A stretch of DNA of 64,000 nt from a virus. The position numbers and the translations under genes are program-made. The notes beneath the pieces were generated by a model that had not been told where the DNA came from, made no database searches, and was given only the letters and a program-made list of their open reading frames with translations. The stretch is from IMG/VR virus record IMGVR_UViG_3300034111_001607, positions 1 to 64,000 of that record. One strand, given 5' to 3'. Position 1 is the first letter of the stretch. The number at the start of each line of letters is the position of its first letter. Of this stretch, positions 5,617 to 55,830 are shown piece after piece.

Positions 5617-5640
5617 ATATAATTTTTTATGTTAATTTGT

Positions 5641-10296: not shown

Positions 10297-10655
10297 TATA
10301 GATTTTGAACACTTGTTGCGCTATATTTTATTTTAATTCCACTAACATCAAACTCGATATTTGTTGAGCCTGTAGAATTTTGCACTGTTAGAATATACCA
10401 ACGGTCTTTTAAACTTGCACTGCGAGAATATTGCCCCGCTTGCGATATTTCAATTTGTGTTCCGTTTCCGTCTCTTAATGGGACTTGCCTCCCAATATCT
10501 CCGCCTATAGTTGTTAATGCTGTTGTTTCAATTAATGAAGCACCATTTGCAAATGTTCCTGCAATATTACAAGATAAAATATCTGTTTTATGTGAATCTG
10601 AACGAAATGCAATATATTGACCATTTTGAGTTAATATTATTTTTTGATATGCCAT
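10296..10655 (-). CDS. small protein between tailspike and tail fibre
   Basis: 119 residues, beta-rich and polar, without TM segment or signal. It starts with AYQKIILTQNGQYIAFRSD. It sits between two receptor-binding genes and is coupled by a TAATG overlap to the long fibre gene, so a virion baseplate or fibre-attachment role is likely. I recognise no family. Confidence 0.6.
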   Translation of the reverse strand: MAYQKIILTQNGQYIAFRSDSHKTDILSCNIAGTFANGASLIETTALTTIGGDIGRQVPLRDGNGTQIEISQAGQYSRSASLKDRWYILTVQNSTGSTNIEFDVSGIKIKYSATSVQNL

Positions 10656-10666
10656 ATATTATTAAA

Positions 10667-13048: not shown

Positions 13049-13091
13049 TTTTCTTTATATTTGTTATATAAAGACTTATACAATATCAAAT

Positions 13092-13147
13092 CCGCCATTC
13101 AATTTTTTAACCTGTATTGAAAAACAGGCGGACTTGTTGCCAAGTCC
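13092..13147 (-). terminator. paired hairpins between baseplate and tailspike genes
   Basis: On the minus strand a seven-base-pair stem GGACTTG-GCAA-CAAGTCC (13147-13130) with a GNRA-type loop is followed by two overlapping stems. CCTGT (13128-13124 side) pairs with ACAGG, and CCGCC pairs with GGCGG (13131-13127 with 13096-13092). No long T-run follows. It may be an attenuator, partial terminator or mRNA processing site splitting tailspike expression from the baseplate operon. Confidence 0.45.
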
Positions 13148-13177
13148 ATATAAGAAATAATTTACTCTTTTATAAAG

Positions 13178-13876
13178 TCAAGTAAAAATCGCAAAACCAT
13201 TGTCTGTTAATATTGAATACCCATCATCATTTGTTATTACATATTGGTATTCATTATCATTAAAAAATTGATATAATATTTGAACATGAGCAGGTTTTAA
13301 TTTATTAATCAAACATTTAATAGTTTCAAGCGTTGCATTCCCAAGTGTTGTTTGTCCTAAAATAGCAGTGCCAAGCGTGTCGCCTTTTAAATAAAATGGC
13401 AGTGTAATAATCATTGTATAATTAATGACTTCACTACTCAAAAGAATTATTCCTAAAATAGCATTCCCAAGTGTAGCCTGCTCCGAATTACTTTGAATTT
13501 CAAAATCTATAATTTCAAATAAATTTAAAATATATTCAACTTGTTTTTTAAAGTTTCCTTGCAACCACGCAAATTTGAGTAAAATATTTCTTCTTCTTAA
13601 TTCAATTGTATCCTCAATAGGCAAACAATCATCTGGTATTCCAACAAGGGTTTCATAAAAATCTAACAAAGCATTTGCCTTGTTAATATCCATTTCCGTT
13701 TCAAGCAATATCAAATTATTTCTAAAATCTAAAAATAAAGTTGCTAATGCTTGTAAAATTTGCCTTAATGGGTGTCCGTCAATATTTTTTCCTGAATGCA
13801 ATATATCATCACGCAAATATTGTGCTAAAATATTTACCTGCTCTTGTTTTGTTATTATTTTCAATTTTGTAGGCAT
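13178..13876 (-). CDS. baseplate protein, Mu gp48 / YmfQ (DUF2313)-like
   Basis: 232 residues. The segment NALLDFYETLVGIPDDCLP followed by IELRRRNILLKFAWLQGN matches YmfQ/gp48, where an aspartate/proline loop and an Arg-rich helix precede the second half. It sits directly after the gp47/J-like gene, exactly the Mu order. Role: baseplate wedge protein joining the J ring to the fibres. Its last 25 residues (ITNDDGYSILTDNGFAIF) form an extra Gly/Asp strand pair and may be the fibre contact. Start overlaps the upstream stop as TAATG. Confidence 0.8.
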   Translation of the reverse strand: MPTKLKIITKQEQVNILAQYLRDDILHSGKNIDGHPLRQILQALATLFLDFRNNLILLETEMDINKANALLDFYETLVGIPDDCLPIEDTIELRRRNILLKFAWLQGNFKKQVEYILNLFEIIDFEIQSNSEQATLGNAILGIILLSSEVINYTMIITLPFYLKGDTLGTAILGQTTLGNATLETIKCLINKLKPAHVQILYQFFNDNEYQYVITNDDGYSILTDNGFAIFT

Positions 13877-15213
13877 TATGGGAATGTAATAGTTCCAAGC
13901 ACTGGCATCTCACCATTATTTATTTGAATATTTGTTGCAGGAAAGGCTAATCTAAATGATTGAACGGTATTGGATTGAATATCTGTTGAGGTTGAAATTG
14001 GTATTTCATAATTGCTTCTACTAATATTAGTTTCAAACTCAGCATCATTTCTAAAAAAAGCTTTCAAGTTATTTGTAATAGCTTCTTGCATAATTGCAGT
14101 GTTTGGCGTCAATTCAGTAAATTGAAAATTTATAACTCTTGGCGTTGGTGCAAGCACTATGACATTGCTTGATGGAAGTTCGGCAGGTTTTATACCAGTA
14201 TCAGGGTCAATTAATGCGTTTTTAGTGTCAATAACTTGTTGTGATGTTGGTATATTATCCGTGTCCCCATCTCTTAAAAAATAAATTGTAACAAACCCAG
14301 CGGACGGCGTTGTTTCTTTTACATAAACTCTTGTAATGCCAGAAATCCCACTTAATTTTTCATCTTTTAAAAATGCTTTAATTCCACCAACATTAAAGCC
14401 AGTTGAAGGATTATTGAAATATTCTAATTTTCTATTAATAAAATCATCATCACTTTCCTCATCAAGCCCACCAGTAATACCATCAAAAACAGCATAAACC
14501 TCATCGTCTACATTAATGATTGGACTTGTTAAGCCTAAAATACTATCATTATTTAAGTTTTTATCACTTCCAACCTCACTTGAAATAATACCAACCGTAA
14601 CGCCATTATAATTCAAGAATAAAGTGCCTGTTGCAGGTGTTAAAGGGCTTCCACTAACTTCAAATGTAAAAGTAGTGGGACTTGTAATTGATATAGTTTG
14701 ATTTATAATATTATATTCCGTTTGTCCTGCCCCTGTAATACTTGCTAAAACGCTATTTGTCAAGTTGTGTTCCGTTGCCGTTTCAACAGTAGCGGTATCG
14801 CCAACTCTATTAATTGAAATAATTGAAATATTTTGCGTTGCAATAATGCCTTCCGCTTGCGTTGTATATTCAAGCCCATCAATGTTGTTTAATGTAGTGC
14901 CTACTGGAATCGTTCCGCCAACAGTTCCAGTAAATGTAACATTTCCACTTGCAAGCTCTGCATCATTTTTTGTTAATCCAAGTGTTATTTTTTCTAAAAA
15001 TAATTCAACTAACCCGTCCTCAACTTTTTGCAAATTTCTATTGTTATCATTCATTCCAAAGGAAAGTGAATCAACCAAACCCTTAATATAGCTATTTTTT
15101 TTTGTAGGGTCTATTTTCTTTGTAATGTCCGTTTGCCCAGTATTCACACTTTGTACAAGTGCGGTTGACATTTTCCGTTGCGTTTGTACCAGCGTGTCAA
15201 TTGGTATAGCCAT
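13876..15213 (-). CDS. baseplate protein J-like (Mu gp47)
   Basis: 445 residues. The Baseplate_J signature GGLDEESDDDFINRKLEYFN lies near residue 240, followed by the GFNVGGIKAFLKDE region and a C-terminal FRLAFPATNIQINNGEMPVL, all typical. J proteins ring the tail tip and hold fibres in contractile tails. Residues about 125-185 hold a small Ig-like insert (ATEHNLTNSVLASITGAG then TTFTFEVSG), also seen in other virion genes here. It lies between the gp46-like and gp48-like genes as in phage Mu. Confidence 0.92.
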   Translation of the reverse strand: MAIPIDTLVQTQRKMSTALVQSVNTGQTDITKKIDPTKKNSYIKGLVDSLSFGMNDNNRNLQKVEDGLVELFLEKITLGLTKNDAELASGNVTFTGTVGGTIPVGTTLNNIDGLEYTTQAEGIIATQNISIISINRVGDTATVETATEHNLTNSVLASITGAGQTEYNIINQTISITSPTTFTFEVSGSPLTPATGTLFLNYNGVTVGIISSEVGSDKNLNNDSILGLTSPIINVDDEVYAVFDGITGGLDEESDDDFINRKLEYFNNPSTGFNVGGIKAFLKDEKLSGISGITRVYVKETTPSAGFVTIYFLRDGDTDNIPTSQQVIDTKNALIDPDTGIKPAELPSSNVIVLAPTPRVINFQFTELTPNTAIMQEAITNNLKAFFRNDAEFETNISRSNYEIPISTSTDIQSNTVQSFRLAFPATNIQINNGEMPVLGTITFP

Positions 15214-15214
15214 A

Positions 15215-15640
15215 TTACACTATATTGAAAAAATCATAATTTTCTTTAATTCCAGTTTGTGTGTTTGTCAATTGAATATTTATATTGAGTTTATTTTGCT
15301 CACGGCTTGTTTCAACTTGAATATCACTTGCTAAATTATCATCAATTAACCATTGCAAGCCTTCTAAAATAGCATTTTCCATAGCTTGGGCATTTTGTGG
15401 TGTATTTTTCTGTTTTGAGTAATACCAAAACAAAGAACCAACTTCGTAATTTTGGTAAAATTCATTAACAGGGTCGCCCTCTCTATAAAATGGGTTTTCA
15501 ACAAGCCCTGCTTCCGCTCTTTTTTTACAAAAAATAGACATACAAACGGCAGGTTCTAAACTTTGTGTTAATTCAAAATCTCCATTTTTCCAATTCCAAG
15601 CAAAAACAGAATTTGCTTGAATTAAATTAATGTCTGCCAT
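15215..15640 (-). CDS. baseplate protein, Mu gp46-like (GP46 / gpW family)
   Basis: 141 residues. FELTQSLEPAVCMSIFCKKR followed by QNAQAMENAILEGLQWLIDD fits phage GP46, in which an acidic/aromatic N-terminus precedes a helix with LxTAVxxSLFxxRRA. GP46/gp25-like proteins bind the tail-tube end and start sheath assembly. Order next to J-like protein is conserved. It ends 1 nt before the J-like gene and faces the oppositely oriented spike gene at 15669. Confidence 0.8.
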   Translation of the reverse strand: MADINLIQANSVFAWNWKNGDFELTQSLEPAVCMSIFCKKRAEAGLVENPFYREGDPVNEFYQNYEVGSLFWYYSKQKNTPQNAQAMENAILEGLQWLIDDNLASDIQVETSREQNKLNINIQLTNTQTGIKENYDFFNIV

Positions 15641-15668
15641 ACATACAATATATATGTTATTTTCCTAA

Positions 15669-16301
15669 ATGTATAGTATAGTAAAAGGTAGTATTTTAAA
15701 AGTCAACAACGATAAACGAACAGTTCAAGTTCAAACCTCCGAAAGCACAGAGCCTTTTAATGTTAAATTGCATCAAATAATTGGAAGTGCGTTTATTCCA
15801 TTAATAAAAGATAGTTCATTATGTTATGTTTTTAAGATTAACGGAAGTAAATCAAACGCTTTTTGTATTCCATTTGATATTTTAGAACAAGAAGTAAATT
15901 TAGAGTTTGGTGAAAATGGAGACTTTGTTCAAGGAAATATATATTCAGGTTGCAAAATAACATACAAAGTTAATGGAGACATTGAAGTTCAAGCAACTGG
16001 TGAAAATCAACAAATATCAATAAATGGTAAAACGATTTCAATGAACGGTGAAAATATTGCAATAAATGGAAGTAATGAAATAAATCTTAATAGTGAAGTT
16101 TGTAATATTGAAAATCAAACTACAAATATTAATAGTAGTGCAATGGTTAATATTAATGGAATTATGGTTAATATAGCAGACGCAGTGAGTTTTGCATTAA
16201 ATCAAAATGCACAAATGCAAGTTGTTATTCCGAGTGGTAGTAGTGCTGGCACATACCCAGTTCAAATAATGAATGCAGGTCAGGTTAAAGTCAAAATTTA
16301 A
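15669..16301 (+). CDS. baseplate spike, gpV / Mu gp45-like
   Basis: 210 residues. An OB-like N-terminal half (GSILKVNNDKRTVQVQT) leads into a repetitive beta-helix (about 105-165) rich in short turns: QISINGKTISMNGENIAING, EINLNSEVCNIENQTTNINS. This is the layout of gp45/gpV spikes that form the membrane-piercing needle of contractile tails. In Mu, gp45 lies between gp44 and gp46. Here the gene occupies exactly that slot but on the opposite strand, so it is also covered antisense if the late minus-strand transcript reads through. Confidence 0.82.
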   Translation: MYSIVKGSILKVNNDKRTVQVQTSESTEPFNVKLHQIIGSAFIPLIKDSSLCYVFKINGSKSNAFCIPFDILEQEVNLEFGENGDFVQGNIYSGCKITYKVNGDIEVQATGENQQISINGKTISMNGENIAINGSNEINLNSEVCNIENQTTNINSSAMVNINGIMVNIADAVSFALNQNAQMQVVIPSGSSAGTYPVQIMNAGQVKVKI

Positions 16302-16351
16302 TTGACATTTTGTTATTTTCATTTAAAAAACATTAACTACATATAAAAAAA
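16302..16351 (+). promoter_or_regulatory. possible promoter before fibre gene
   Basis: TTGACA at 16302-16307 starts just after the spike stop codon. It is followed by an A/T-rich stretch and ATTAACTACAT before an A-run and the ATG at 16352, resembling the TAACTAAT leader seen elsewhere. No convincing -10 hexamer at 16-18 nt, so moderate to low confidence. Confidence 0.35.
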
Positions 16352-17581
16352 ATGGCAGATTTAGGTTATTTTGCAACTTTAAATGATTTAACAACGGCAC
16401 ACCCAACGGCAACGGTCGGTGATAATGCAATAGTCGGCGTTGATACCGCACAAACAATATATTTTTGGAGTGCAGCAGGCGGCGGTACTTGGTATGATGC
16501 TCTAAAAGTAAAAGGGATTCAAGCTTCAAGTTTTGGCTATGAAAACAATCCGTCATTCACCGATGAAGTGGGATATTTAAGAAAAGCAGATGGCTCTTCT
16601 CGTAGATTAACATTAAAAAAAGCATGGAAGGGTATAATGACACAAAAGGGAGACTTGACTACACTTGATGCAGATAATCAAACACCAATTAGAGTGCTAG
16701 CGGGTGCAAATGATACCGTTTTAAGATATGTTAATGGAGTGCCAACGCCATCTAACCTTGATGATTTGTATTATGCAATAGGTTCGCTACCAATATCAAG
16801 TGAAACAACACGAGGCATTATTGAAATTGCAACACAAACAGAATATTTTAACAAAGATAACACAAAAGCAATAACTGCTGAAAATATTGCAAATGATGTT
16901 AGACAAGCTTCATTTTCAATAGTAAATAAATCATATAATGGTGTTCAAGAAACAGACTTTGGCGATAGTGCAACTTGGCTACCAATTGCTGCACCACAAT
17001 TAATACCAACAGGCGATGAAACTTTGGACGGCACGGGGGTTTTTGTATCAGGTCTTAACCTTTTAGGCACTATGTTATCAGTGAACGAAGACAACACAGA
17101 TTTAGTGGATTATGCAGGTTTTGAATTTAAAGATACTGCAAACGCTTTATTAAATGGAAATGGAAAATGGTTTAATGATGCAGATAAGAAATGGCTTGCA
17201 CCAAGTCCATTAAACACTTTTAATCAAGGTTCTAACAAAAAATTATTTTTTAGAATAAGAATACCTGAATTTATGATTACAACGCAAAATGGATTTAATG
17301 GTAACGCAATATATCTATATATAAGGCTATTACGATATAATTTTAATGCACAAGATAGAAAAATAATATCCCAAATACCAATTGTACTGTCGGACATTAA
17401 TGCAACAAGTAATATACCATATACATTTTTATATTCAACTAATATTAAAGGTGAAACTGACCCTTTTGTGTCGGCAGGTAATGGTTTTTATATGGATATA
17501 ATTAAATCAAATAAAAGCTCTGCTGATGGTGGGAACCCAGTGTATTTAAGACATATAAGAATTGATATTGAAAGAAATTAA
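16352..17581 (+). CDS. tail fibre or baseplate-appendage protein
   Basis: 409 residues. The segment SSETTRGIIEIATQTEYFNK followed by KAITAENIANDVRQ matches the tail-fibre repeat ETTRGIVELAT...AVTPxNL. The N-terminal FATLNDLTTAHPTATVGDNA is a typical fibre-base domain. The C-terminal half is beta-rich and may bind the receptor. It follows the spike gene on the plus strand, and its stop codon overlaps the stop of the converging gp44-like gene. It is one of three fibre-like genes (with 5641 and 10667), suggesting several receptors or a branched apparatus. Confidence 0.75.
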   Translation: MADLGYFATLNDLTTAHPTATVGDNAIVGVDTAQTIYFWSAAGGGTWYDALKVKGIQASSFGYENNPSFTDEVGYLRKADGSSRRLTLKKAWKGIMTQKGDLTTLDADNQTPIRVLAGANDTVLRYVNGVPTPSNLDDLYYAIGSLPISSETTRGIIEIATQTEYFNKDNTKAITAENIANDVRQASFSIVNKSYNGVQETDFGDSATWLPIAAPQLIPTGDETLDGTGVFVSGLNLLGTMLSVNEDNTDLVDYAGFEFKDTANALLNGNGKWFNDADKKWLAPSPLNTFNQGSNKKLFFRIRIPEFMITTQNGFNGNAIYLYIRLLRYNFNAQDRKIISQIPIVLSDINATSNIPYTFLYSTNIKGETDPFVSAGNGFYMDIIKSNKSSADGGNPVYLRHIRIDIERN

Positions 17582-18690
17582 ATATAAATCTTGTCAATTT
17601 GTTGGCTTTTTGCAATTCTTTTTGTTGCACTTGCAATATCTTTTGTGAAAGTTCCTCTATTACACAAAACAAGGTCGGTAATAGTTCCGCCTCCTTCGTC
17701 TTTGCGGAAAACAACCTCGGTAATTAAAAACTCACTATCAATTTTTTGCAATTCATTTTGATAACGCACTAATGTATTTATACCCCACGGCATTTTATCA
17801 TCTCGTTTTCTTCTAAAGCCTTCTACTGTAATAGGTATTTTACCACTTTCGGCACGCTTCCTATTCATTATATATTTTGCAATATCATTTAAAGTTGCAT
17901 TATTTGATTGTGTTGTTGCCTGTTGTATGAGTTGAATATTATTACTTAAAAGCTCGTCAATAGCTTCGCCAGTTTGCAAAACACTATTTTTTGTGAAATC
18001 ATTCACATCACTTTCGGCAAATAATTTTATCTTTTTTGCACGCCTTATTGTTGAAAATGTTGAATTTTTAACATTATTTAAAATAGTGTTGCCATTTGCA
18101 ATTGAATAAAGTTCAACGCCCGAGCTTTCATTTGATTCATTTAAAAATACAAGGTTGCCTTTTGCATTTGTAATAATAGTTGTTTGAGTTTGAGAAGCGT
18201 ATCTTCCAATAAAATTTAAAATAGTCTCTCCAACCTCAAAAACAATATCTTCCTTTGTTGTAATTGGAATGTTGCCAATTTGATTGTCAATCTTAATATC
18301 TGTAAAACCATTGCCATCTAAAACCGCCCTAACAAGGCTTTCAAGCGTTCTTTGTTTATATGTTTTTGGCAGTCCATTACTTTCTTCCAAGTCCTTTGTT
18401 TTACTTGCAATATCTAAAGAATAGGATATACCATCACTGGTTTCAGTTACGGTTGCACTCCATATATACCCCGTCAATTGCAAAATATCATTTATGTAAA
18501 TTTGTACTTCACTTTCATTATTAACCTCAACTAACGCTCTTTTTTTACCGTCAATAATTAGTTGCCTTACAACACCTGTAACTGTGCAAGTGTTATAAAA
18601 ACTTGACAATGATTGAGTAAGTTGGAAAGTTTCAAATGTATTAAAGCCAATATCTGTGCCATTTACGAGTATTTTAACTAAGTCCGTCAT
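17578..18690 (-). CDS. baseplate hub, Mu gpP (gp44)-like
   Basis: 370 residues. The N-terminal VKILVNGTDIGFNTFETFQL and the later TYKQRTLESLVRAVLDGNGF and VGETILNFIGRYASQTQ match the gpP/gp27 hub family, four-domain proteins that adapt the six-fold tube to the three-fold spike. It overlaps the upstream gp43-like gene by 4 nt. The C-terminal half keeps the family pattern (WGINTLVRYQNE, then FLITEVVFRKDEGGGT). Confidence 0.85.
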   Translation of the reverse strand: MTDLVKILVNGTDIGFNTFETFQLTQSLSSFYNTCTVTGVVRQLIIDGKKRALVEVNNESEVQIYINDILQLTGYIWSATVTETSDGISYSLDIASKTKDLEESNGLPKTYKQRTLESLVRAVLDGNGFTDIKIDNQIGNIPITTKEDIVFEVGETILNFIGRYASQTQTTIITNAKGNLVFLNESNESSGVELYSIANGNTILNNVKNSTFSTIRRAKKIKLFAESDVNDFTKNSVLQTGEAIDELLSNNIQLIQQATTQSNNATLNDIAKYIMNRKRAESGKIPITVEGFRRKRDDKMPWGINTLVRYQNELQKIDSEFLITEVVFRKDEGGGTITDLVLCNRGTFTKDIASATKRIAKSQQIDKIYI

Positions 18691-19898
18691 ACCAACGCTA
18701 AAACTCCACCACTTAAAGAACTAACATCTTTTGTATTGTTAATGTTATCTATCAAATCAAGATTGTCAAGGTTGCCATATAATCCATATACAAATTTTGC
18801 AAGTGGTCTTTGTGTTATATTATAAGATTGTATCTTTGGAAGTTGCAATGTAATTAAATCAAGTGTTTTATTGGCAACCGTTCTTAATTCTATAAGAGTT
18901 TGATATAAATCCTCATCAAGTCTTTCAGCGTCAAGACTTTGGAATGTTTGCTCCAAAAATTCCCTATTTTCTTGTAAGTTATCAACACTTTGGTAATCAA
19001 TATTAACACTTGCAAAATAGCATAATGCAAGCGAGGTTGTTTTAACATTATCATTTATGATATTCCTATTTGTGTCAATAATTTCTTTTGTTGTAGAGTC
19101 TATATAATACGCATCATTGCTAACTTGAAAAGCAGTCATTTCCCTTGAAACACCAAACAACTCTAACGCCCCATCAAAAGCCGTTTCAAGACTAAAAAGA
19201 GAAGAGTTTAAACTATCAGCTAAAATAGATGGACTGCCTGCAAGAATGCCCGCATTTACATTAAAAACATTAAGTGTGCTTGTAAAGTCGCTAAACCCCG
19301 TTGCACTTCCTTGCACTGTTTTTGCACGCCTTAACATTTCATTACCAATATTAGGTATTATAAACATCGCATCTTTTGTTGCGGTTATATTTTTTGCAAT
19401 ATTCGGGTATTTTTTTGTTAATTCTGCCTTTTTATTGATTAATGCTTGAACATTTTGCGTAAAAACACGGTCTTTCAACCTTCTAATAAAACCTTTATTG
19501 ACATCATTGTTTGTTGAAGTTATAGTCGGTTCTGTTTGGTAAAATGTTAATGAATAATTCCATTTTCCAACCTCTGAAATAAGGTTGACATCTGGCGTTA
19601 TACCCTCACAAATCATTTTTGTGTATTTTTGCCTTCCAATAACTAAGTCACCAACCCCCTCCTGTGTTGTTATTTTTATTAATTCATTTATTGCATTGTC
19701 ATTTCTTGGAACATAAACCTCACCAGTAATTGAAATTGAAAGCCCTTTTAAACCCAACTCTTCTACATAAGCACGGTCTCTATTTGGAAACTCATGAACT
19801 TTTATTTTTTTTAAAAGTGGTGCAGTTTGTGTAATAACACGCCCCAGTGAAACACCCTTATAAGTTGCTTCCTGAAAGTTGCCAGTGTTAATAGACAT
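18687..19898 (-). CDS. DNA circularisation / tail protein, Mu gpN (gp43)-like
   Basis: 403 residues. ATYKGVSLGRVITQT, KKIKVHEFPNRDRAYVEELG, then ITGEVYVPRNDNAINELI match the conserved N-terminal domain of gpN, in which a fish-hook beta domain ends in an EDLG motif. GpN sits between tape measure and gpP in Mu and forms the distal tail-tube ring. The order here is the same. The name DNA circularisation protein comes from Mu annotation; the structural role is the more likely one. Confidence 0.85.
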   Translation of the reverse strand: MSINTGNFQEATYKGVSLGRVITQTAPLLKKIKVHEFPNRDRAYVEELGLKGLSISITGEVYVPRNDNAINELIKITTQEGVGDLVIGRQKYTKMICEGITPDVNLISEVGKWNYSLTFYQTEPTITSTNNDVNKGFIRRLKDRVFTQNVQALINKKAELTKKYPNIAKNITATKDAMFIIPNIGNEMLRRAKTVQGSATGFSDFTSTLNVFNVNAGILAGSPSILADSLNSSLFSLETAFDGALELFGVSREMTAFQVSNDAYYIDSTTKEIIDTNRNIINDNVKTTSLALCYFASVNIDYQSVDNLQENREFLEQTFQSLDAERLDEDLYQTLIELRTVANKTLDLITLQLPKIQSYNITQRPLAKFVYGLYGNLDNLDLIDNINNTKDVSSLSGGVLALV

Positions 19899-33794: not shown

Positions 33795-33816
33795 ATATTT
33801 TATAATAACTATATTC

Positions 33817-33846
33817 AATATATAAACATACTTTTTAAAATGTCAA
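33817..33846 (-). promoter_or_regulatory. promoter TTGACA-N18-TATATT
   Basis: Minus-strand -35 at 33846-33841 and -10 TATATT at 33822-33817, exactly 18 nt apart. The spacer is nearly the same as at 54070-54123 (TTTAAAAAGTATGTT), well beyond the hexamers. It drives the small-gene operon 33794-32607. Confidence 0.8.
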
Positions 33847-33849
33847 GTC

Positions 33850-33872
33850 TTTTTTACAATATTTGTAAAAAA
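33850..33872. repeat. A/T inverted repeat between divergent promoters
   Basis: TTTTTTACAA and TTGTAAAAAA pair perfectly around a 3-nt loop. It lies between the minus promoter (-35 at 33846) and a plus TTGACA at 33887. It could be a bidirectional terminator, insulating the two units, or an operator. Confidence 0.6.
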
Positions 33873-33924
33873 AGTCCGGAGAATTTGACATTTATTGTAA
33901 ATTCAGCCCCAAACTGTTTATAAC

Positions 33925-35690: not shown

Positions 35691-35712
35691 ATAATTTGTA
35701 TTAGTTATACAT

Positions 35713-35742
35713 CATATAAACACACTATTTTTAAAAAGTCAA
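35713..35742 (-). promoter_or_regulatory. promoter TTGACT-N18-TATATG
   Basis: -35 at 35742-35737, -10 at 35718-35713, 18-nt spacer, then GATGTATAACTAAT and the ATG at 35690. It drives the acetyltransferase operon and matches the cassettes at 33841, 45450 and 54118. Confidence 0.78.
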
Positions 35743-35806
35743 GAAGTTTTTTATTATTTAATTATATATTGTTGCGGTAAAATATTATTATTTAATTAAA
35801 CAAAAC

Positions 35807-41357: not shown

Positions 41358-41385
41358 TTTATATACTATGTTTTCAAAAAGTCAA
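41358..41385 (-). promoter_or_regulatory. promoter TTGACT-N16-TATAAA
   Basis: -35 at 41385-41380 lies inside the 3-prime end of the nuclease gene 41374; -10 TATAAA at 41363-41358, 16 nt away. It reads into gene 40988 and on to 40049. Confidence 0.65.
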
Positions 41386-41895
41386 GCAATTTCCTTGTAT
41401 TTTCTTAATTTTTTCCTGTTCTTTCAGGTCTATTGCAAGATTATATTTTCCCTTAATGTGTAACCATTTTGCAATATACTCGCAAATATACTCTTTATGT
41501 GGTGGTAGCCATTCCGCAGGGTCTTTGTCGCTTTTTTGTCTGTTTAATGATTTGTTAACCGCAATAAGATTTTCATAATCATTTGCAAAGACTTCCCTTT
41601 GTTTTGCTGTCCATTTATCCGCTCCGCTTTCCCAAGCCTCGTGAAGTGGTACAATATGGTCAATGTCAAGACTTGAAGGTTGTGTGTAAAACTGCCCGCC
41701 ATAATCATCATACCATTTTCCTTGAATAACACGGCAATCTTGAATTTTAACAGGTTTTAAACTGTCTTTTTGTAACACCTCTTGTCTTGTATTCAAACAG
41801 TCTCCGTCATCATCAATCCAGTGTTTGAAAGAACTTCTTGTATAACTTGCAAAAGCTATTTGTGAAAGAAGAAGGGTTATGAGGAGGGTTTTCAT
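41374..41895 (-). CDS. exported HNH nuclease (DUF1524-like)
   Basis: 173 residues. The N-terminal 16 (KTLLITLLLSQIAFA) form a signal peptide with an AxA-type end. The rest has SLDIDHIVPLHEAWESGADK, the HNH core with His in DHIVPL, then ANDYENLIAVNKSLNRQKSD (the NL-x-N of HNH) and PAEWLPP. This is the DUF1524/GmrSD-C-like HNH family, many of which are secreted DNases. Exported phage nuclease could degrade DNA outside the cytoplasm or exclude competitors entering through the periplasm. Substrate unknown. Confidence 0.75.
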   Translation of the reverse strand: MKTLLITLLLSQIAFASYTRSSFKHWIDDDGDCLNTRQEVLQKDSLKPVKIQDCRVIQGKWYDDYGGQFYTQPSSLDIDHIVPLHEAWESGADKWTAKQREVFANDYENLIAVNKSLNRQKSDKDPAEWLPPHKEYICEYIAKWLHIKGKYNLAIDLKEQEKIKKIQGNCLTF

Positions 41896-41903
41896 ATTTT
41901 TGG

Positions 41904-42089
41904 TTAAAAATTATTTTTCATATCATTTAATTCATTCCATTTTTTCAAAAACTCTTGCATTGCAATATAAGGATTTTCTATTTGAAGTAAATCAAAATAT
42001 TCGTGTGCGAGTTTGCTTGCTGGTTTTTTTGTGTAATAGTTATCATAAACTGCTAAATTAATTAATTTTTTGTTAAATAGTTGTTTTTC
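41904..42089 (-). pseudogene. open frame with coding look but no normal start
   Basis: On minus, a 61-codon stretch is open up to TAA at 41904-41906 and encodes NLAVYDNYYTKKPASKLAHE then PYIAMQEFLKKWNELND. It looks like real protein but has no ATG, GTG or TTG until an internal ATG near its end. It lies in the +1 frame directly after the stop of gene 42073. It may be a truncated gene, a frameshifted tail of that gene, or use an unusual start. Confidence 0.35.
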
Positions 42090-42678
42090 TTATATAGTTT
42101 ATGTAATTAAGGCAATGTTTTATTGCAGTATCGTATTTATATTCATGAGTATAATCGGTAGGCACTAGTTTTTCATATCCATAATTTCCCTTACTCCATT
42201 CCTCATACTCCATAGCAGGCACAAAAACATAGCCTCCTGCATCAATAACATAAGTACAAAATACCTGATACAATATTTCTCTTAGTTCATTTATAAATAT
42301 TTGTTTTGGTGTTTGTAAAATTTTAATGCTATAAATAATAAATTCAGCTTTAATATTATTTTGTGTTGAAAAATTTTGTATTATTATTTTTTTACATTTT
42401 TCAAAATATTGTATTTCTTTATTCGACCATATAAATACAAATTCATGTACTTTTTCCTGTTCAGGAATTTGACATAAAACTTTAACTTCATATTTTGTAT
42501 AGTATGAAATATTCTGTAATTTTGATTTTATGTTAAATTGAAAACCAAACTCAGTTTTTGATTTTTCTTTTTTCATTGCACGATAAAGACCTTTTAACTG
42601 CTGTAAGTTAAACTTTCTCAATTCTATTTTTACCAAACCTTCATTGTAAAATAATGGTTCTTTAATTTCAACTTTCAT
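42073..42678 (-). CDS. hypothetical protein, 201 residues
   Basis: Lys/Ile-rich, mostly soluble, alpha/beta (PTDYTHEYKYDTAIKHCLNY at the C-terminus). No TM or known motif. It follows hisG by 14 nt and shares its operon. An open frame without start follows its stop. Confidence 0.5.
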   Translation of the reverse strand: MKVEIKEPLFYNEGLVKIELRKFNLQQLKGLYRAMKKEKSKTEFGFQFNIKSKLQNISYYTKYEVKVLCQIPEQEKVHEFVFIWSNKEIQYFEKCKKIIIQNFSTQNNIKAEFIIYSIKILQTPKQIFINELREILYQVFCTYVIDAGGYVFVPAMEYEEWSKGNYGYEKLVPTDYTHEYKYDTAIKHCLNYINYIRKTTI

Positions 42679-42692
42679 ATAGTTTAAAAAAA

Positions 42693-43538
42693 TTAAATTA
42701 CTTTTTCTGGGCTTGTTATAATAATGTCTTTTGCACCAATCTTGCTTAATGTTTTTAGAACTTTAAAAAGCTCTTTTTCATCACAAAGGGCATGTATTGC
42801 AACCATATCATCTTGAACGAGTGGCAAAATTGTCGGCGTGTGGCTTGGTAAATAATGACATATTAACTCAATACTTTTCTTTTCACAGTTTAACATAACA
42901 TATTTCTTGTTTTTAGCGTTTTCAGTGGCTTCTATTTTAAACAGAATGTCTTTTATAACATCACTATTTGAACCGATTAAAACTGCTTGTGAGTGCATTA
43001 ATGTTTCCCCTTCTACCAGTCCGCTTTTTCTTAGAGTTTCGCCAGTTTCCACTATATCAAAAATAGCATCTGCAATTCCAAGCTCAATAGCGTGTTCTAC
43101 TGAGCCAGTTAAATCAATAACATTAAGAAGATAGTCAGGAAAGTTAATATTATTATACAATATATTTTGATAAGAAGTTGCAACTTTGATGTATTGTAAA
43201 TCATTGCGTTTTAAGTATGTCTTACCTGCAATAGAAAGTCTACAATGTCCAAAAGGTAGTTTTTGAATTAATGGTATTACATCTTTTAATGCCATAGCAT
43301 AGTAATTAAACGATTCCAGTGTATTTTGTCCACATATACCATTATTTACACCTTTTTCTTCAAGTAGAAGCGGTATATCTTTTTCACGCATTAAAACTAA
43401 ATCAAAGTCTCCATTTATACATTGTAATTGAAAACCTGTGTTGTCTTTTTTAAATTCAAAACCTGCTTCGGTAAAACATTTTAAAGTATCATTATGTAAC
43501 CTACCGTTTTTTGGTATTGCTATTTTTATTCTGTTCAT
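42693..43538 (-). CDS. hisG: ATP phosphoribosyltransferase, long form
   Basis: 281 residues; first enzyme of histidine synthesis, joining ATP and PRPP to give phosphoribosyl-ATP. It aligns with E. coli HisG throughout: IAIPKNGRL, MREKDIPLLLEEKG, NNGICGQNTLE, FGHCRLSIA, KVATSYQNIL, and GIADAIFDIVETGETLRKSG with the PRPP loop (161-169, DIVETGETL). Residues about 206-281 (KKYVMLNC, TPTILPLVQDDMVAIHA) form the regulatory ACT-like domain that mediates histidine feedback in long-form HisG. No other his genes are in the window. It is flanked by phage genes in the same operon and shows no sign of decay. Confidence 0.9.
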   Translation of the reverse strand: MNRIKIAIPKNGRLHNDTLKCFTEAGFEFKKDNTGFQLQCINGDFDLVLMREKDIPLLLEEKGVNNGICGQNTLESFNYYAMALKDVIPLIQKLPFGHCRLSIAGKTYLKRNDLQYIKVATSYQNILYNNINFPDYLLNVIDLTGSVEHAIELGIADAIFDIVETGETLRKSGLVEGETLMHSQAVLIGSNSDVIKDILFKIEATENAKNKKYVMLNCEKKSIELICHYLPSHTPTILPLVQDDMVAIHALCDEKELFKVLKTLSKIGAKDIIITSPEKVI

Positions 43539-43546
43539 ATATTTTT

Positions 43547-43972
43547 TTAAATTCTTCTATAATTATTATTTATTTTACACCATTCAAAAGTATAGTTATA
43601 GAATTTTTGTGTATTTAAGATTACCCGTGCTTTTGCAAGCTCAGTTTGCATTTTTTTTGCATCATTTTTATAAAATTCTTGAATTTCTTTAAATTGTTTA
43701 AGTCTTTTTATTTTGAGTATATTTGCAAATATATAAACATTTGGATCATTTTTTTTTATAGTGCTAGATATTACTTTTGCTGCTTTTTTTTCATTTACAA
43801 TCCGCAAATATTCTTCTTCAGATATCATTGAAAATTTATAATGTGGACTATCAAAACCATTTAACCCACGACTAACAGTCGATACAACAACATTCATTTT
43901 ATTAGCAAGTTTTCCTATACTGTCTGCAACAAAAACTGTATTATGTCCTCGTAAAATTCCTTTGTAAAACAT
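43547..43972 (-). CDS. NUMOD1-like DNA-binding protein, possible homing remnant
   Basis: 141 residues. The N-terminal GILRGHNTVFVADSIGKLAN followed by KMNVVVSTVSRGLNG resembles NUMOD1 modules (FxSIxxAAKxLGxSxxTISxxLNG) found at the ends of homing endonucleases. No nuclease domain is joined here. The C-terminal half is helical and basic. It may bind DNA alone. It starts directly upstream of hisG (8-nt gap). Confidence 0.5.
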   Translation of the reverse strand: MFYKGILRGHNTVFVADSIGKLANKMNVVVSTVSRGLNGFDSPHYKFSMISEEEYLRIVNEKKAAKVISSTIKKNDPNVYIFANILKIKRLKQFKEIQEFYKNDAKKMQTELAKARVILNTQKFYNYTFEWCKINNNYRRI

Positions 43973-43987
43973 ATTATTTTCTAAAAA

Positions 43988-44602
43988 TTAATCCATTTTT
44001 AATGCCATCTCTATTTGATATGGATCGTACCATTGCACTTGATTTTCTTTAAATTTTACCTTTTGTATCTTATCATAAAAACACCATTTTTTTCCATCAC
44101 CACGCCAACACACATTTGAAAATAACATTGAATGATTATGGTCTGTGAGATATTTGTGCCATTTTGTAAAATTACCGCCAAAAGTTGGTATTTTATAAGG
44201 CTCGTAAACACAATAAACTAATTTCATTTTATCATATAAATTTTGGTATGTTTCAGCATCATAATATGTTGCTGGCGGAAACACTTCATACCTACCTGTT
44301 TTACAATCAGAATACTCTTCTTGAAAATCTTTAATAAGATTCTTAATTTTTATATTTTCTAAAATATCAACCAAGTCGCCACTACTTACTTTGATAATTT
44401 CTTTTTGGTGTAATGTTTCTGTCTTTTTTCGTGTTCTTTTTAATTCTTTTTCATTATATAACCCAACAACACTTGTATGATGAAACATTGCATCATTATC
44501 TGCTTCTTTACTTCTCAATTGATATTTTGGATATAATATGTGAATAGTATCTACCGGTTGTTTTTCTCGCTCTAAATATAATTCTAATTCTTTTGTAAGC
44601 AT
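43988..44602 (-). CDS. hypothetical protein, 204 residues
   Basis: Starts with a helical segment LELYLEREKQPVDTIHILYP. Its C-terminus (FSNVCWRGDGKKWCFYDKIQ) has two Cys and several Trp. No TM and no recognised domain. In the hisG operon. Confidence 0.5.
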   Translation of the reverse strand: MLTKELELYLEREKQPVDTIHILYPKYQLRSKEADNDAMFHHTSVVGLYNEKELKRTRKKTETLHQKEIIKVSSGDLVDILENIKIKNLIKDFQEEYSDCKTGRYEVFPPATYYDAETYQNLYDKMKLVYCVYEPYKIPTFGGNFTKWHKYLTDHNHSMLFSNVCWRGDGKKWCFYDKIQKVKFKENQVQWYDPYQIEMALKMD

Positions 44603-44616
44603 ATATATTTTTACAA

Positions 44617-44931
44617 TTAATCTTTTTTCAATGCTTCTTTTACATTATTTATTATTGAATGCCTATATTCGGGGTTTTTCAAAAGATATTTCCAATATAC
44701 TTCATTGTTATGAAGTTTAAAGACATGTGTTTTTATAAATAATGGAAATTTATCTAATATTTTAAATACAAAATCGTATTGTCTTTTCTTTTTCATTTTA
44801 AATATAGTTTGTATTTCATACTCTTCGCCATCAAAAGTACCTATATCTTTTATCTTTAATGAACATTTATTGCGTTTGGGTTCAATATAACGCCAGCAGT
44901 CGCCTAATTTTTTTAAAAACTCTTCATTCAT
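44617..44931 (-). CDS. hypothetical protein, 104 residues
   Basis: Basic protein with Lys/Phe-rich middle (KKRQYDFVFKILDKFPLFIK). Its ATG is preceded at 9 nt by TTAACTAAT, although no -10 box lies upstream here, so the element may act in translation too. Function unknown. Confidence 0.5.
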   Translation of the reverse strand: MNEEFLKKLGDCWRYIEPKRNKCSLKIKDIGTFDGEEYEIQTIFKMKKKRQYDFVFKILDKFPLFIKTHVFKLHNNEVYWKYLLKNPEYRHSIINNVKEALKKD

Positions 44932-44945
44932 ATAATTGTTATTAG

Positions 44946-45230
44946 TTAATCTTTTTGAAGTGCTTCCTCAATTGCTTTTTGGTTTTCAAGAAAAGCCTCT
45001 GCATGCATTGCAATCTGGTCTTGAAAGCTTTGGTTGTCTAAAAGCCAGTCAATAAACTCTTGCATATTTTCATCACATACACCACCAACTTTTGCTTGCG
45101 ATGAAAGGTTTGTAGTTGTTTGATGGCAAAACAGTAGATATCTACCAATAGACATTTCCAGTAATGAAGCTTGTGATTTTATTTGATTATGTTCGCCTTT
45201 TTCAATATCAATTCCAATTCTTTTTTTCAT
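44946..45230 (-). CDS. CopG/ribbon-helix-helix-like small protein
   Basis: 94 residues. KGEHNQIKSQASLLEMSIGR-YLLFC resembles the RHH pattern (xxLKxxAxxxGxSxxxYL) that binds DNA as a dimer. The remaining half is acidic and helical. It could be a regulator of this operon. Overlaps the upstream gene by 4 nt. Confidence 0.5.
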   Translation of the reverse strand: MKKRIGIDIEKGEHNQIKSQASLLEMSIGRYLLFCHQTTTNLSSQAKVGGVCDENMQEFIDWLLDNQSFQDQIAMHAEAFLENQKAIEEALQKD

Positions 45231-45403
45231 AAAGCTTTAATAAAATTTTGAGTTTCGTTAAAATTTCCAATAGATAGAAAATTATTTACACCTTCAAGGG
45301 TTATTGTGAAAGTGTTTTCACCATGTTGTTCTATTTCTGCATTTAATCTTTTTTTATTTAGTAATTTTTGTAAAAAATTTAATTCCCAAGAAATTATTTT
45401 CAT
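45227..45403 (-). CDS. small hypothetical protein, 58 residues
   Basis: Start at 45403 (MKIISWELNFLQKLLN) is chosen because ATAACTAAT ends 9 nt before it; a further in-frame ATG at 45448 lies within the promoter. First gene of the operon that includes hisG. Function unknown. Confidence 0.55.
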   Translation of the reverse strand: MKIISWELNFLQKLLNKKRLNAEIEQHGENTFTITLEGVNNFLSIGNFNETQNFIKAL

Positions 45404-45425
45404 ATTTTGTATATTAGTTATACAC

Positions 45426-45455
45426 AATATAATATCATTGTTTTTCAAATGTCAA
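45426..45455 (-). promoter_or_regulatory. promoter TTGACA-N18-TATATT of the hisG operon
   Basis: -35 at 45455-45450, -10 at 45431-45426, 18-nt spacer, then GTGTATAACTAAT and the ATG at 45403. One of four nearly identical promoters. It should drive genes 45403 down through hisG to about 42073. Confidence 0.8.
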
Positions 45456-45502
45456 GTGTTTTTTTACATTTTTTACATTTTTGTATTTTTTTACTTTTTT
45501 AC

Positions 45503-46854: not shown

Positions 46855-48834
46855 TTATTGACAAGCTAAACATTCATCATTTGCATTCAAGCCACCAATT
46901 CCAACTTCTTTTTGTGTAGAAGGCAACTCTTCCGTTTTTGGTTCATTGGTTTTTTCTGCTCTTTGAATTGATGCAGAACGACAGTAGTAAAGGCTTTTTA
47001 TACCTTTTTTCCAAGCTTGAAAGTGAATTTTGTGAAGCTCCGCTTTGGCAACATTTGACGGAACAAAAATATTTAAAGATTGTGCTTGGTCAATAAATGG
47101 TTGACGGTCAGCGGCGTGGTCAATTAACCACATTTGATTTAATTCCATTGCAGTTTTGAAAACATCTTTTTCTTCTGGCGTTAAAAAATCTAAGTGCATA
47201 ATAGAACCTTCATTCATTGAAATTGAACTCCACACTTCACTTGTATTTTTACCTTTGCTTTCAAGAAGTTTTGCAAGGTGCTTATTCCTTACAATAAATG
47301 TTCCAGAAAGCGTTTTGTGTGTATAGCAGTTTGCAATAAATGGCTCAATACCAGGGCTTGAATTTCCACAAATAATTGAAATTGAGGCGGTCGGTGCAAT
47401 TGCAGTGCAATTTGAAAATCTTAAATTAAGTCCCAAATCTTTTGCATCTGGGCAAGCCTCCCTTTGTCTTTCCCAGTCATTTGCAAGCTTTTCATTTGCT
47501 AAATCGCATTTTTCTTTTATATGTTTAAAAATTATTTTATTCCAAGATTTTGCCGCAACTCCTTCAAACGGTGTATTTTTGCTTTGAAGGAAAGAGTGAA
47601 AACCCATAACGCCCAAGCCAACCGAACGCTCACGCATTGCAGAATATTTTGCTTTTTCCATTGTGTCAGGTGCTCTATTAATGAAATCCGTCAATACATT
47701 ATCAAGGAAACGCATAATGTCTTCAATAAAAAGTTCATTGTCTTTCCACTCTTCAAAATATTCAAGGTTTAAACTTGAAAGGCAACACACGGCGGTTCTT
47801 TCTTTTTGTAATTGGTCAAGTCCAGTAAATAGGGTAATTTCCGAACACAAATTTGATGTCTTTGGCTTCATACCGTATTTTTCTTCCATTGCTTGATAAA
47901 CGGGGCTTTTATTCTTTTGCATATTACCCTCGTAAAGAATGTATGGCTCGCCCGTCTCAACCCTTGCTGAAAGGATTTTTATCCACAAATCTCGTGCTGA
48001 AACTTCCGCAATAGCCTTATTATCTTTTGGGCTTCTAAACCAATAAGTGCTACCATTTTCTACTGCTTTCATAAAATCATCTGTTAAAACAACACCGTGG
48101 TGAAGGTTTAAACATCGGCGGTTTGGGTCTCCACCAGTTGGGCGGCGAATATCAATAAATTCTTCAGTTTCAGGGTGTGAAATAGGAAGGTATGCAGCAC
48201 TGCTTCCCCTACGAATACCAGACTGTGTGTCTGCTAAAATCATTGAATCTTGAACTTTCATTTGTGGAACAATGCCAAGGGCGTCTCCTCTCTTACCTAT
48301 TTTTGAGCCCATTTCACGCACATTCCCCCAGTATGTTCCAATTCCTCCTCCAGATGTTGCCAAATAACCATTTTCCGTGCGTAATTTTGCAATTTGCTCC
48401 GATGAAAGAACTATTTCATCAATATCGTGAAGTAAATTGTTATTTTCTACATTGTTTGAAAATATATTTGTAATGGTTCCAACTGTTGCCCCCTCTTCCC
48501 TTGCATTTATAACATTTACAAGTTTATCAAGAACTTCATTCAAGTAGCAAGAAATAGGCAATGAATGGCTGTCTTTTAACCCTCCATTTGCAAGAACTGG
48601 TGTTGCAGGCATAAACCAGCATTTTGACATATAATCATAAATGCGTTGACCGTGTGCATCATCGTCTTTGTACGCTTCGGCAACTCTTTTGAAAAGTTCT
48701 TGAAAGGTTTCGTCTTCTTGAATAATATTACCTTCCTCGTCTTTTATTTCTTTTAAAAGGTATCTATCTTCTAATATTGCCTTACTAAAATCTGTTAAAT
48801 TGGCGTCTCGACTGTTGTCTATTTGTATTGTCAT
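46855..48834 (-). CDS. nrdA: ribonucleoside-diphosphate reductase, large (alpha) subunit
   Basis: 659 residues. Catalytic residues match class I NrdA: Cys96 (ISCYL), Asn328-Cys330-Glu332 (SNLCSEI), Cys350 (AVCCLSS), a Tyr pair in SLYYCRS and the C-terminal CLAC (655-658) that reduces the active-site disulphide. Substrate region APTASISIICGNSSPGIEP is typical. There is no N-terminal ATP cone. Residues about 104-150, between Cys96 and the TSGGGIGTYWGNVR strand, form an extra segment of roughly 35-40 residues. It makes deoxynucleotides for phage DNA. No small subunit (NrdB) is in the window, so it may use a host NrdB or one encoded elsewhere. Confidence 0.92.
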   Translation of the reverse strand: MTIQIDNSRDANLTDFSKAILEDRYLLKEIKDEEGNIIQEDETFQELFKRVAEAYKDDDAHGQRIYDYMSKCWFMPATPVLANGGLKDSHSLPISCYLNEVLDKLVNVINAREEGATVGTITNIFSNNVENNNLLHDIDEIVLSSEQIAKLRTENGYLATSGGGIGTYWGNVREMGSKIGKRGDALGIVPQMKVQDSMILADTQSGIRRGSSAAYLPISHPETEEFIDIRRPTGGDPNRRCLNLHHGVVLTDDFMKAVENGSTYWFRSPKDNKAIAEVSARDLWIKILSARVETGEPYILYEGNMQKNKSPVYQAMEEKYGMKPKTSNLCSEITLFTGLDQLQKERTAVCCLSSLNLEYFEEWKDNELFIEDIMRFLDNVLTDFINRAPDTMEKAKYSAMRERSVGLGVMGFHSFLQSKNTPFEGVAAKSWNKIIFKHIKEKCDLANEKLANDWERQREACPDAKDLGLNLRFSNCTAIAPTASISIICGNSSPGIEPFIANCYTHKTLSGTFIVRNKHLAKLLESKGKNTSEVWSSISMNEGSIMHLDFLTPEEKDVFKTAMELNQMWLIDHAADRQPFIDQAQSLNIFVPSNVAKAELHKIHFQAWKKGIKSLYYCRSASIQRAEKTNEPKTEELPSTQKEVGIGGLNANDECLACQ

Positions 48835-50427: not shown

Positions 50428-50964
50428 TCAATTAAATAAATTAGCTATTTTCTCCCAAGTTTCAGGGGTTTGTTCTTCTAAAAGGTTTGTGTTAAAATCA
50501 CAAAACTTTCCAACTGGAAGTATATGAATTATTTGGTGTATTTCTAAACCTTTTGCAATATAAATATGGTCTTTTTTGTTTGTATTTAGTAAATTAAGAA
50601 CATCAAAAAGTGTTATTGGTCTGCCAAGAATTTGAAAATCTATTACCTTGCCGTGGTTTTGTCGTATTTTATCGGTTAAATACAATTGCATATTCCCCCA
50701 GTATTCTGTTACAAAAACTTGTTTATACACATCGTTATAATTAGTCGGTTTACTCGCTCCACAAGCAATACCGATTGCTGAACCATTTATAAAATCTCCT
50801 TTAAAATTTACATAGACTCTACATAAATTACCTGCATCGGTATTGCCAAAATTAAAAAACTCCCTCTCCAAAGCCTCATCTAAGGTTTTTGCCGTGGGGT
50901 TATTATTCATAATTACTTTTTCCCATATCTTTTTGTAGTGTGGGTTTTGTAGTGCGTTTTGCAT
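50428..50964 (-). CDS. hypothetical protein, paralogue of 50968
   Basis: 178 residues. It shares its ends with the next gene: YKKIWEKVIMN at the start, LGRPITLFDVLNLL in the middle and EEQTPETWEKIANLF at the end. GRPITLxDVLxLL is a recurrent phage motif of unknown function, usually followed by a Trp/Asp-rich end. The central part differs between the two copies. Direct DNA repeats of about 50 bp (50420 and 50960 areas) cover the 3-prime ends, so this is a tandem duplication that then diverged. Confidence 0.6.
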   Translation of the reverse strand: MQNALQNPHYKKIWEKVIMNNNPTAKTLDEALEREFFNFGNTDAGNLCRVYVNFKGDFINGSAIGIACGASKPTNYNDVYKQVFVTEYWGNMQLYLTDKIRQNHGKVIDFQILGRPITLFDVLNLLNTNKKDHIYIAKGLEIHQIIHILPVGKFCDFNTNLLEEQTPETWEKIANLFN

Positions 50965-50967
50965 AAA

Positions 50968-51426
50968 TCAATCAATTAAATTAGCTATTTTCTCCCAAGT
51001 TTCAGGTGTTTGTTCTTCAATTAAATTACTTTTATTGTTTATATCGCATATCTTTTTTACAAAATATTGGAATATATCATTAGAAGTATTGCGTGTGACA
51101 TCAATATTACACAACACAACACAGTTGGTCATTAACGCAAACTCACCGTTCTCTATATTTTTTTGTAACAATTTTAAAACATCAAAAAGAGTTATTGGTC
51201 TTCCTAAGATATTATAGGTTTTGTCGTAAATTTTTCCCATCTTATTAGACATATCAAAATTTACAATATTTATATGTGACGTCGTCTTTGTTAAACCATA
51301 ATAACACCCAACTTGTGAAAATTCTAATACCAAAGCCTCCTCCAAAGACTCCGCCTCTGGGTGTCTATTCATTATTACTTTTTCCCAAATCTTTTTGAAG
51401 TGGAGGTTGTTAAGTGCTTCTTGCAT
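50968..51426 (-). CDS. hypothetical protein, paralogue of 50428
   Basis: 152 residues with the same start (FKKIWEKVIMNRHPEAESLE), GRPITLFDVLKLL and EEQTPETWEKIANLI elements. It lacks part of the central region of the other copy. The two genes are 3 nt apart and co-transcribed. Function unknown. Confidence 0.6.
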   Translation of the reverse strand: MQEALNNLHFKKIWEKVIMNRHPEAESLEEALVLEFSQVGCYYGLTKTTSHINIVNFDMSNKMGKIYDKTYNILGRPITLFDVLKLLQKNIENGEFALMTNCVVLCNIDVTRNTSNDIFQYFVKKICDINNKSNLIEEQTPETWEKIANLID

Positions 51427-54070: not shown

Positions 54071-54093
54071 AATGTTATATATTAGTTATACTC

Positions 54094-54123
54094 AATATAA
54101 CAACATACTTTTTTAAATGTCAA
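54094..54123 (-). promoter_or_regulatory. promoter TTGACA-N18-TATATT of recombination operon
   Basis: -35 at 54123-54118, -10 TATATT at 54099-54094, spacer 18 nt, then GAGTATAACTAAT and the ATG at 54070 (10 nt after). Divergent from the promoter at 54156. Confidence 0.82.
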
Positions 54124-54158
54124 GTAATTTCTTTGTTTTTTTCTTTGTTTTTTTCTTG
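54119..54158. repeat. direct repeat, copy B (T-rich 40-mer)
   Basis: Same T-rich sequence as 52269-52308 with one difference. It spans from the minus -35 box to the plus -35 box of the divergent promoters, so the duplicated piece is promoter spacer DNA. Confidence 0.85.
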
Positions 54159-55710: not shown

Positions 55711-55747
55711 TAAGAAACCTTAAAATGCTAGCAATTGCGATATAATA

Positions 55748-55820
55748 TTCACAGGCTGGATTTGAACCAGCGTCATTAAGTTATTACCCCTAATATGCTT
55801 CCAGACTACACCACTGTCAA
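55748..55820 (-). tRNA. tRNA with 8-nt anticodon loop, isotype unclear
   Basis: 73 nt on minus. The acceptor TTGACAG pairs with CTGTGAA except one G-G mismatch at the third pair. D arm has a 4-bp stem and A14, G15, GG18-19 and A21. The T arm is GCTGG-TTCAAAT-CCAGC, canonical. Anticodon stem TTAGG/CTTAA encloses an 8-nt loop GGTAATAA; counted from the 3-prime side, U33 and purine 37 fit and the anticodon would read AAU, which is odd for bacteria. No CCA is encoded. Body is clearly tRNA; decoding is uncertain. Confidence 0.75.
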
Positions 55821-55830
55821 TATCTTGGAT

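Follow-up and report, generated by a model that had tools for sequence, protein, structure and literature searches.

HisG, the ATP phosphoribosyltransferase, catalyzes the first, controlling step of histidine synthesis. The pathway it opens yields AICAR in amounts equimolar to histidine (PMC5852967), and residues important to its feedback control and catalysis have been described in several bacteria: (i) in Escherichia coli, the E271K change in HisG removes feedback (PMC5852967); (ii) in Mycobacterium tuberculosis, Thr238 of HisG holds histidine (PMC5415358) and inhibition by histidine occurs in the micromolar range (PMC5545217); and (iii) for P. arcticus HisG, residue roles have been assigned, with Arg32 found to matter for catalysis (PMC9734150). 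Among phages, a precedent is offered by the Lak megaphages (MK250024, MK250029, and relatives), which encode short HisGs of 212 and 217 aa that score above the TIGR00070 cut-off. Neither HisZ nor HisE was detectable in two Lak genomes, and the operon that carries hisG (Lak-B5 4864-9089; Lak-C1) includes RNA ligase, Ham1-family, CoaD-like nucleotidyltransferase, and weakly SAICAR-synthetase-like genes. Two main Lak papers contain no mention of histidine or of hisG in their text (PMC6784885, PMC8346664), and text searches of the set of papers covered found no description of a phage HisG. An earlier note on the DNA analyzed here had known of no described phage HisG; this agrees with the literature searched, but the Lak megaphages do encode a short-form HisG.

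A long-form hisG in a closed phage genome

The window, i.e., the whole 64,000-nucleotide stretch that was analyzed, belongs to a virus record of 64,879 bp that begins and ends with the same 127 bases. A second IMG/VR contig (3300034062_006852; 53,146 bp) was found to be 100% identical with other break points, to span the end junction of the first contig, and to cover the whole genome except positions 7,156-18,761, with the hisG locus included. Based on the identical ends and the second contig running across the end junction, the genome is closed or circularly permuted; hisG does not sit on an assembly join, barring one error common to both assemblies. The assembly junction once feared at the flanks of hisG is, thus, excluded by a second, identical contig that breaks elsewhere. 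Matches to terminase, portal, tail sheath, baseplate J, tape measure, and anti-repressor proteins identified a contractile-tailed phage, and no integrase domain was found. A host-type metabolic gene, hisG, therefore resides inside a genuine phage genome, which is the arrangement expected of an auxiliary metabolic gene (AMG). Searches of IMG/VR for related phages with terminase, ribonucleotide reductase (RNR), and an additional protein recovered nothing but this virus itself and a distant RNR at 42%.

The hisG open reading frame has an ATG start and is frameshift-free (Table 1). Its product was matched to PF01634 (5e-32, 111.5 bits; cut-off 25.5), PF08029 (6e-18, 65.2 bits; cut-off 23.5), the TIGR00070 hisG equivalog (131 bits; cut-off 75.75), and the TIGR03455 C-terminal equivalog domain (75 bits; cut-off 40.05). 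Alignment with the solved long HisGs 7dah, 4yb5, 1h3d, and 2vd3 spanned phage residues 2 or 3 to 280 or 281. The equivalog and Pfam matches together with this end-to-end alignment place the protein in the HisG family far beyond chance. The prior description of a complete long-form HisG was borne out in that both equivalog cut-offs were exceeded and solved hexameric HisGs aligned over the full length; the PRPP loop and regulatory C-terminal domain it had listed were also located, the former as DIVETGETL, which fits the pattern D-x-V-x-T-G-x-T-L, and the latter by TIGR03455 and PF08029 matches above cut-off. AlphaFold models of the protein (mean pLDDT 40 and 49) were too poor for use.

Table 1. 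Features of the hisG locus and its surroundings (positions in the window)
Feature	Position	Strand	Basis or remark
hisG-like gene, long-form ATP phosphoribosyltransferase, 281 aa	42693..43538	-	ORF, family matches, structure alignment
Catalytic domains I/II, residues 4-188	42975..43529	-	TIGR00070
PRPP-binding loop DIVETGETL, residues 161-169 (E. coli 169-177 DLVSTGATL)	43032..43058	-	alignment
Regulatory HisG_C domain, residues 208-276, with Thr236 and Glu254	42711..42917	-	family matches, alignment
Gene immediately upstream of hisG, 141 aa, no family match, 8-bp gap	43547..43972	-	
Gene immediately downstream of hisG, 201 aa, no family match, 14-bp gap	42073..42678	-	
Four small co-directional genes upstream in the hisG run, function unassigned	43988-44602, 44617-44931, 44946-45230, 45227-45403	-	
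GmrSD_C/HNH endonuclease-like gene, co-directional, downstream of hisG	41374..41895	-	PF07510 2.6e-18
RNR alpha subunit, upstream; nearest recognizable nucleotide-metabolism gene	46855..48834	-	
Promoter-like element CTTGACA-N18-TATATT upstream of the hisG-containing run	45404..45489	-	promoter function inferred

An orphan gene in a phage operon

The immediate neighbors of hisG lie on the same strand at distances of 8 and 14 bp, and a promoter-like element stands upstream of the run, in agreement with the proposal that hisG is part of a phage operon under a phage-type promoter. This intergenic element of 86 nt contains CTTGAC(A) together with a TATA box; it was detected in four copies (33795-33880, 35691-35776, 45404-45489, and 54072-54157), each upstream of a gene run, and is likely a phage promoter with a conserved leader, sigma-70-like by appearance. 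Further upstream, the RNR alpha subunit was found to be class I-type (PRK09102 match, 861 bits), and no RNR beta subunit was found anywhere in the virus record. A pair of tandem related genes of unassigned function (50428-50964 and 50968-51426) shared DNA stretches of 77-93% identity.

Shine-Dalgarno motifs were no commoner in the window (4 of 77 genes) than expected from shuffled sequence (3.0), and a T/A-rich pattern was apparent at -18 to -10. A Bacteroidota host, as suggested by the missing Shine-Dalgarno sites, conflicts with the CTTGACA promoters and the PRK09102-type RNR alpha, and these features together point to no single host group with confidence. A tRNA-Ile with anticodon AAT, which is unusual for a bacterial tRNA-Ile, was predicted at 55746-55821.

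Searches of the whole 64,879-bp record found neither HisE/PRA-PH nor HisI/PRA-CH domains, with the same searches detecting HisE in 14 and HisI in 13 of the 14 control genomes. No HisZ-type domain was found in the second contig (the genome minus 7,156-18,761), and the family listing for 71 proteins of the window added no further his gene. The view of hisG as an orphan with no other his gene is upheld by these absences of HisE and HisI from the record and of a HisZ-type domain from the second contig. Two other assignments were dismissed: (i) a bacterial histidine operon, as the close neighbors match no his family and the record is devoid of HisE and HisI; and (ii) a short-form HisGS, as the C-terminal domain is present and the second contig has no HisZ-type domain. 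As the virus record has neither HisE nor HisI, completion of any histidine pathway falls to the host.

Possible role during infection

We lean, at slightly better than even confidence, toward a working, self-regulating, presumably hexameric long-form HisG that is kept as an AMG and feeds the histidine/AICAR pathway of the host, and flux support to that pathway is judged the most likely role. During infection, the phage HisG would, by the established enzymology, join host ATP and PRPP to form phosphoribosyl-ATP (PR-ATP); host HisI/HisE and the later enzymes would then convert this product to histidine and an equal amount of AICAR, which would re-enter the purine pool. The retained regulatory domain suggests that abundant histidine would still slow the phage enzyme. 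As HisG catalyzes the first and controlling step, a single added enzyme may be enough to raise flux, and retention of the regulatory domain favors supply rather than drain. The tight operon with its repeated promoter-like element was also counted for the AMG explanation, as was the finding that the unrelated Lak group keeps an orphan HisG. This explanation depends on the host having a histidine pathway; in a host without one, the HisG product could be taken no further.

Alternatively, an active HisG may serve in host takeover by draining PRPP/ATP or by accumulating PR-ATP/AICAR, thereby shifting nucleotide regulation or countering a dependent defense. The orphan state of this first enzyme, with no HisE/HisI partner, is consistent with such a use, as are the Lak phages, in which an orphan HisG is likewise retained and neither HisZ nor HisE was detected, and the description of AICAR in PMC5852967 and PMC5798407 as an AMP analogue with regulatory effects. 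Nonetheless, we consider takeover unlikely, as the phage HisG keeps a regulatory domain and marks of histidine control that are needless for a pure drain, and HisG and its close neighbors had no defense or counter-defense family match except a weak Cas2-like match (0.0082) and HNH matches. A broader speculation, to which we give comparably low credence, is that the contractile-tailed phage and Lak independently took up an orphan HisG as a takeover tool that would turn PRPP/ATP into PR-ATP and AICAR and so tie histidine control to the supply of nucleotides for phage DNA, instead of merely providing histidine.

Catalytic and regulatory residues

Conservation of the phage HisG was assessed over 43 near-invariant columns, defined as those at least 93% conserved among 15 long HisGs. 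The phage protein retains 35 of these 43 at about 33% overall identity, and such retention at roughly one-third identity points to long-lasting purifying selection as a HisG-family enzyme. According to our reading of the alignment, Arg13 and Cys99 correspond to Arg32 and Cys115 in the P. arcticus enzyme, and Glu164 supplies an acidic residue at the likely Asp179 position; Glu148 and Asp161 are also kept. The main exception among the near-invariant columns is Asn65, a position occupied by Asp in each of the 17 bacterial HisGs compared. In addition, the phage HisG carries a Gly62Lys change, and Thr34-Gly35 replaces the basic Arg56/Lys57 pair of P. arcticus HisG at a position where most HisGs are basic, although one Bacillota HisG (Bacil_G197) also lacks the pair. 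Catalysis could be reduced in view of Asp65Asn and the missing basic residues. A complete loss of catalysis, with the protein instead binding a ligand (e.g., histidine or a nucleotide) or joining and altering host HisG hexamers, would fit these two changes and Gly62Lys but is improbable when the PRPP loop, Arg13, Cys99, Glu148, Asp161, and 35 of the 43 near-invariant columns are all kept.

The regulatory domain was examined for the residues implicated in histidine feedback. By alignment, Glu254 of the phage HisG corresponds to Glu271 in E. coli and Thr236 to Thr238 in M. tuberculosis, and both are unchanged; a Pro conserved in HisGs is replaced by Glu at phage position 219. The enzyme is, by these residues, probably still histidine-responsive. 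The earlier suggestion that the phage protein might override host feedback finds no support, given an intact C-terminal domain in which Glu254 and Thr236 are both kept. A histidine-insensitive enzyme that escapes host control and floods the pathway would be in keeping with the high divergence of the phage HisG (end branch 2.07) and with the Pro-to-Glu change at position 219; we nevertheless regard it as quite improbable, since HisG_C scores above its equivalog cut-off and neither Thr236 nor Glu254, the residue whose E. coli counterpart abolishes feedback when changed to Lys (PMC5852967), has been altered. Overall, the phage HisG appears to be a member of an ordinary enzyme family, with nothing to suggest that it has gained a new activity or escaped control.

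Origin of the gene and occurrence in other viruses

In the sets searched, the highest full-length identities to the phage HisG came from Deinococcus (34%), Bacteroides (33%), and Gammaproteobacteria (about 32%). A tree built from 29 HisGs placed the phage protein beside the long forms of Bacteroidota, Gamma/Epsilonproteobacteria, and Deinococcus with support of 93/95, although its end branch, at 2.07 changes per column, is so long that the placement is unsure, and the tree samples Bacteroidota thinly and is without Flavobacteria and many other groups. Codon usage of hisG ranked 29 of 68 phage genes, and its GC content was 0.307 versus a phage median of 0.3075; these phage-typical values suggest that hisG has long been resident in the phage. 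A recent transfer from a sampled bacterium was rejected on the basis of identities no higher than about 34% and the phage-typical codons. The genome loci recovered by a single-protein scan were short HisGs, and the three with surroundings read sit in normal his operons.

HisG-like matches were found in 24 of 50,697 phage records, including records of Listeria, Acinetobacter, and Staphylococcus phages; the surroundings were read for MT835496, MT835663, OR851143, and Lak. MT835496, MT835663, and OR851143 were rejected as phage HisGs since bacterial genes surround HisG in each, and the IMG/VR contigs 3300035365_000225 and 2225789004_000224 were likewise set aside as bacterial his operons in viral-labeled contigs. 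Records labeled as phage or viral that hold bacterial his operons or housekeeping genes lead to HisGs being wrongly annotated as phage proteins. Four IMG/VR scans (by protein and by alignments A2, A3, and A6), which rest on short exact peptide patterns, found no other genuine viral HisG. That HisG genes are very rare in viruses is well supported, and uniqueness is not claimed given the reliance of the scans on short peptide patterns. Although several of these phage or viral HisG records proved to be his operons or bacterial housekeeping loci, a passenger or assembly artefact, in which bacterial his DNA was joined to a phage contig, is hardly credible for the hisG described here, as the genome is closed, the second contig is identical over the hisG locus and end junction, hisD does not adjoin the gene, codon usage and GC content are phage-like, and no bacterial HisG in the sets searched was clearly above 34% full-length identity.

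Comparison with known systems

What is new here is an intact, long-resident, long-form phage HisG as a rare AMG, with the short-form HisG of Lak as precedent. If flux support is its true role, a single phage gene would control amino-acid synthesis at a committed, feedback-regulated step; the node so controlled would also spend ATP and PRPP and return AICAR to purines; and histidine synthesis would join the steps known to be phage-steered. The retained regulatory domain poses the testable question of why a phage keeps the brake.

The HisG of Lak is likewise a phage-encoded orphan above the TIGR00070 cut-off; however, it is a short form without the regulatory domain, is only about 21-23% identical to the window HisG, belongs to a different operon, and is not its sister in the tree of 29 HisGs. 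The Lak case shows at least two uptakes of HisG by phages. With the long-form hexameric HisGL of E. coli (1h3d), C. jejuni (4yb5), and M. thermautotrophicus (2vd3), the phage HisG has in common the catalytic domains, C-terminal domain, and PRPP loop. It differs from these enzymes in being phage-encoded and alone without hisD/hisI, in sharing no more than about 34% identity with them, and in the Asp65Asn change and the lack of a basic pair at the Arg56/Lys57 position. Mobile elements of another kind, Nocardia plasmids (L047 and L049; hisG at 14007-14867 in each), also carry a single complete HisG outside a his operon, yet this hisG is of an actinobacterial clade and lies near EgtB-like, methyltransferase, and glycosyltransferase genes, neighbors by which it perhaps supplies histidine for a histidine-derived natural product. 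The plasmid hisG also has a dGTPase gene and a very long gene related to helicases in its vicinity, and the EgtB-like genes lie further on. The phage AMGs of nucleotide metabolism (e.g., phage RNR) are comparable in that a host-type enzyme of a controlling step is carried in a phage operon and needs host partners, and the RNR alpha of the hisG phage is, like its orphan HisG, without its partner, the beta subunit. Unlike these nucleotide-metabolism AMGs, the phage HisG acts in amino-acid synthesis.
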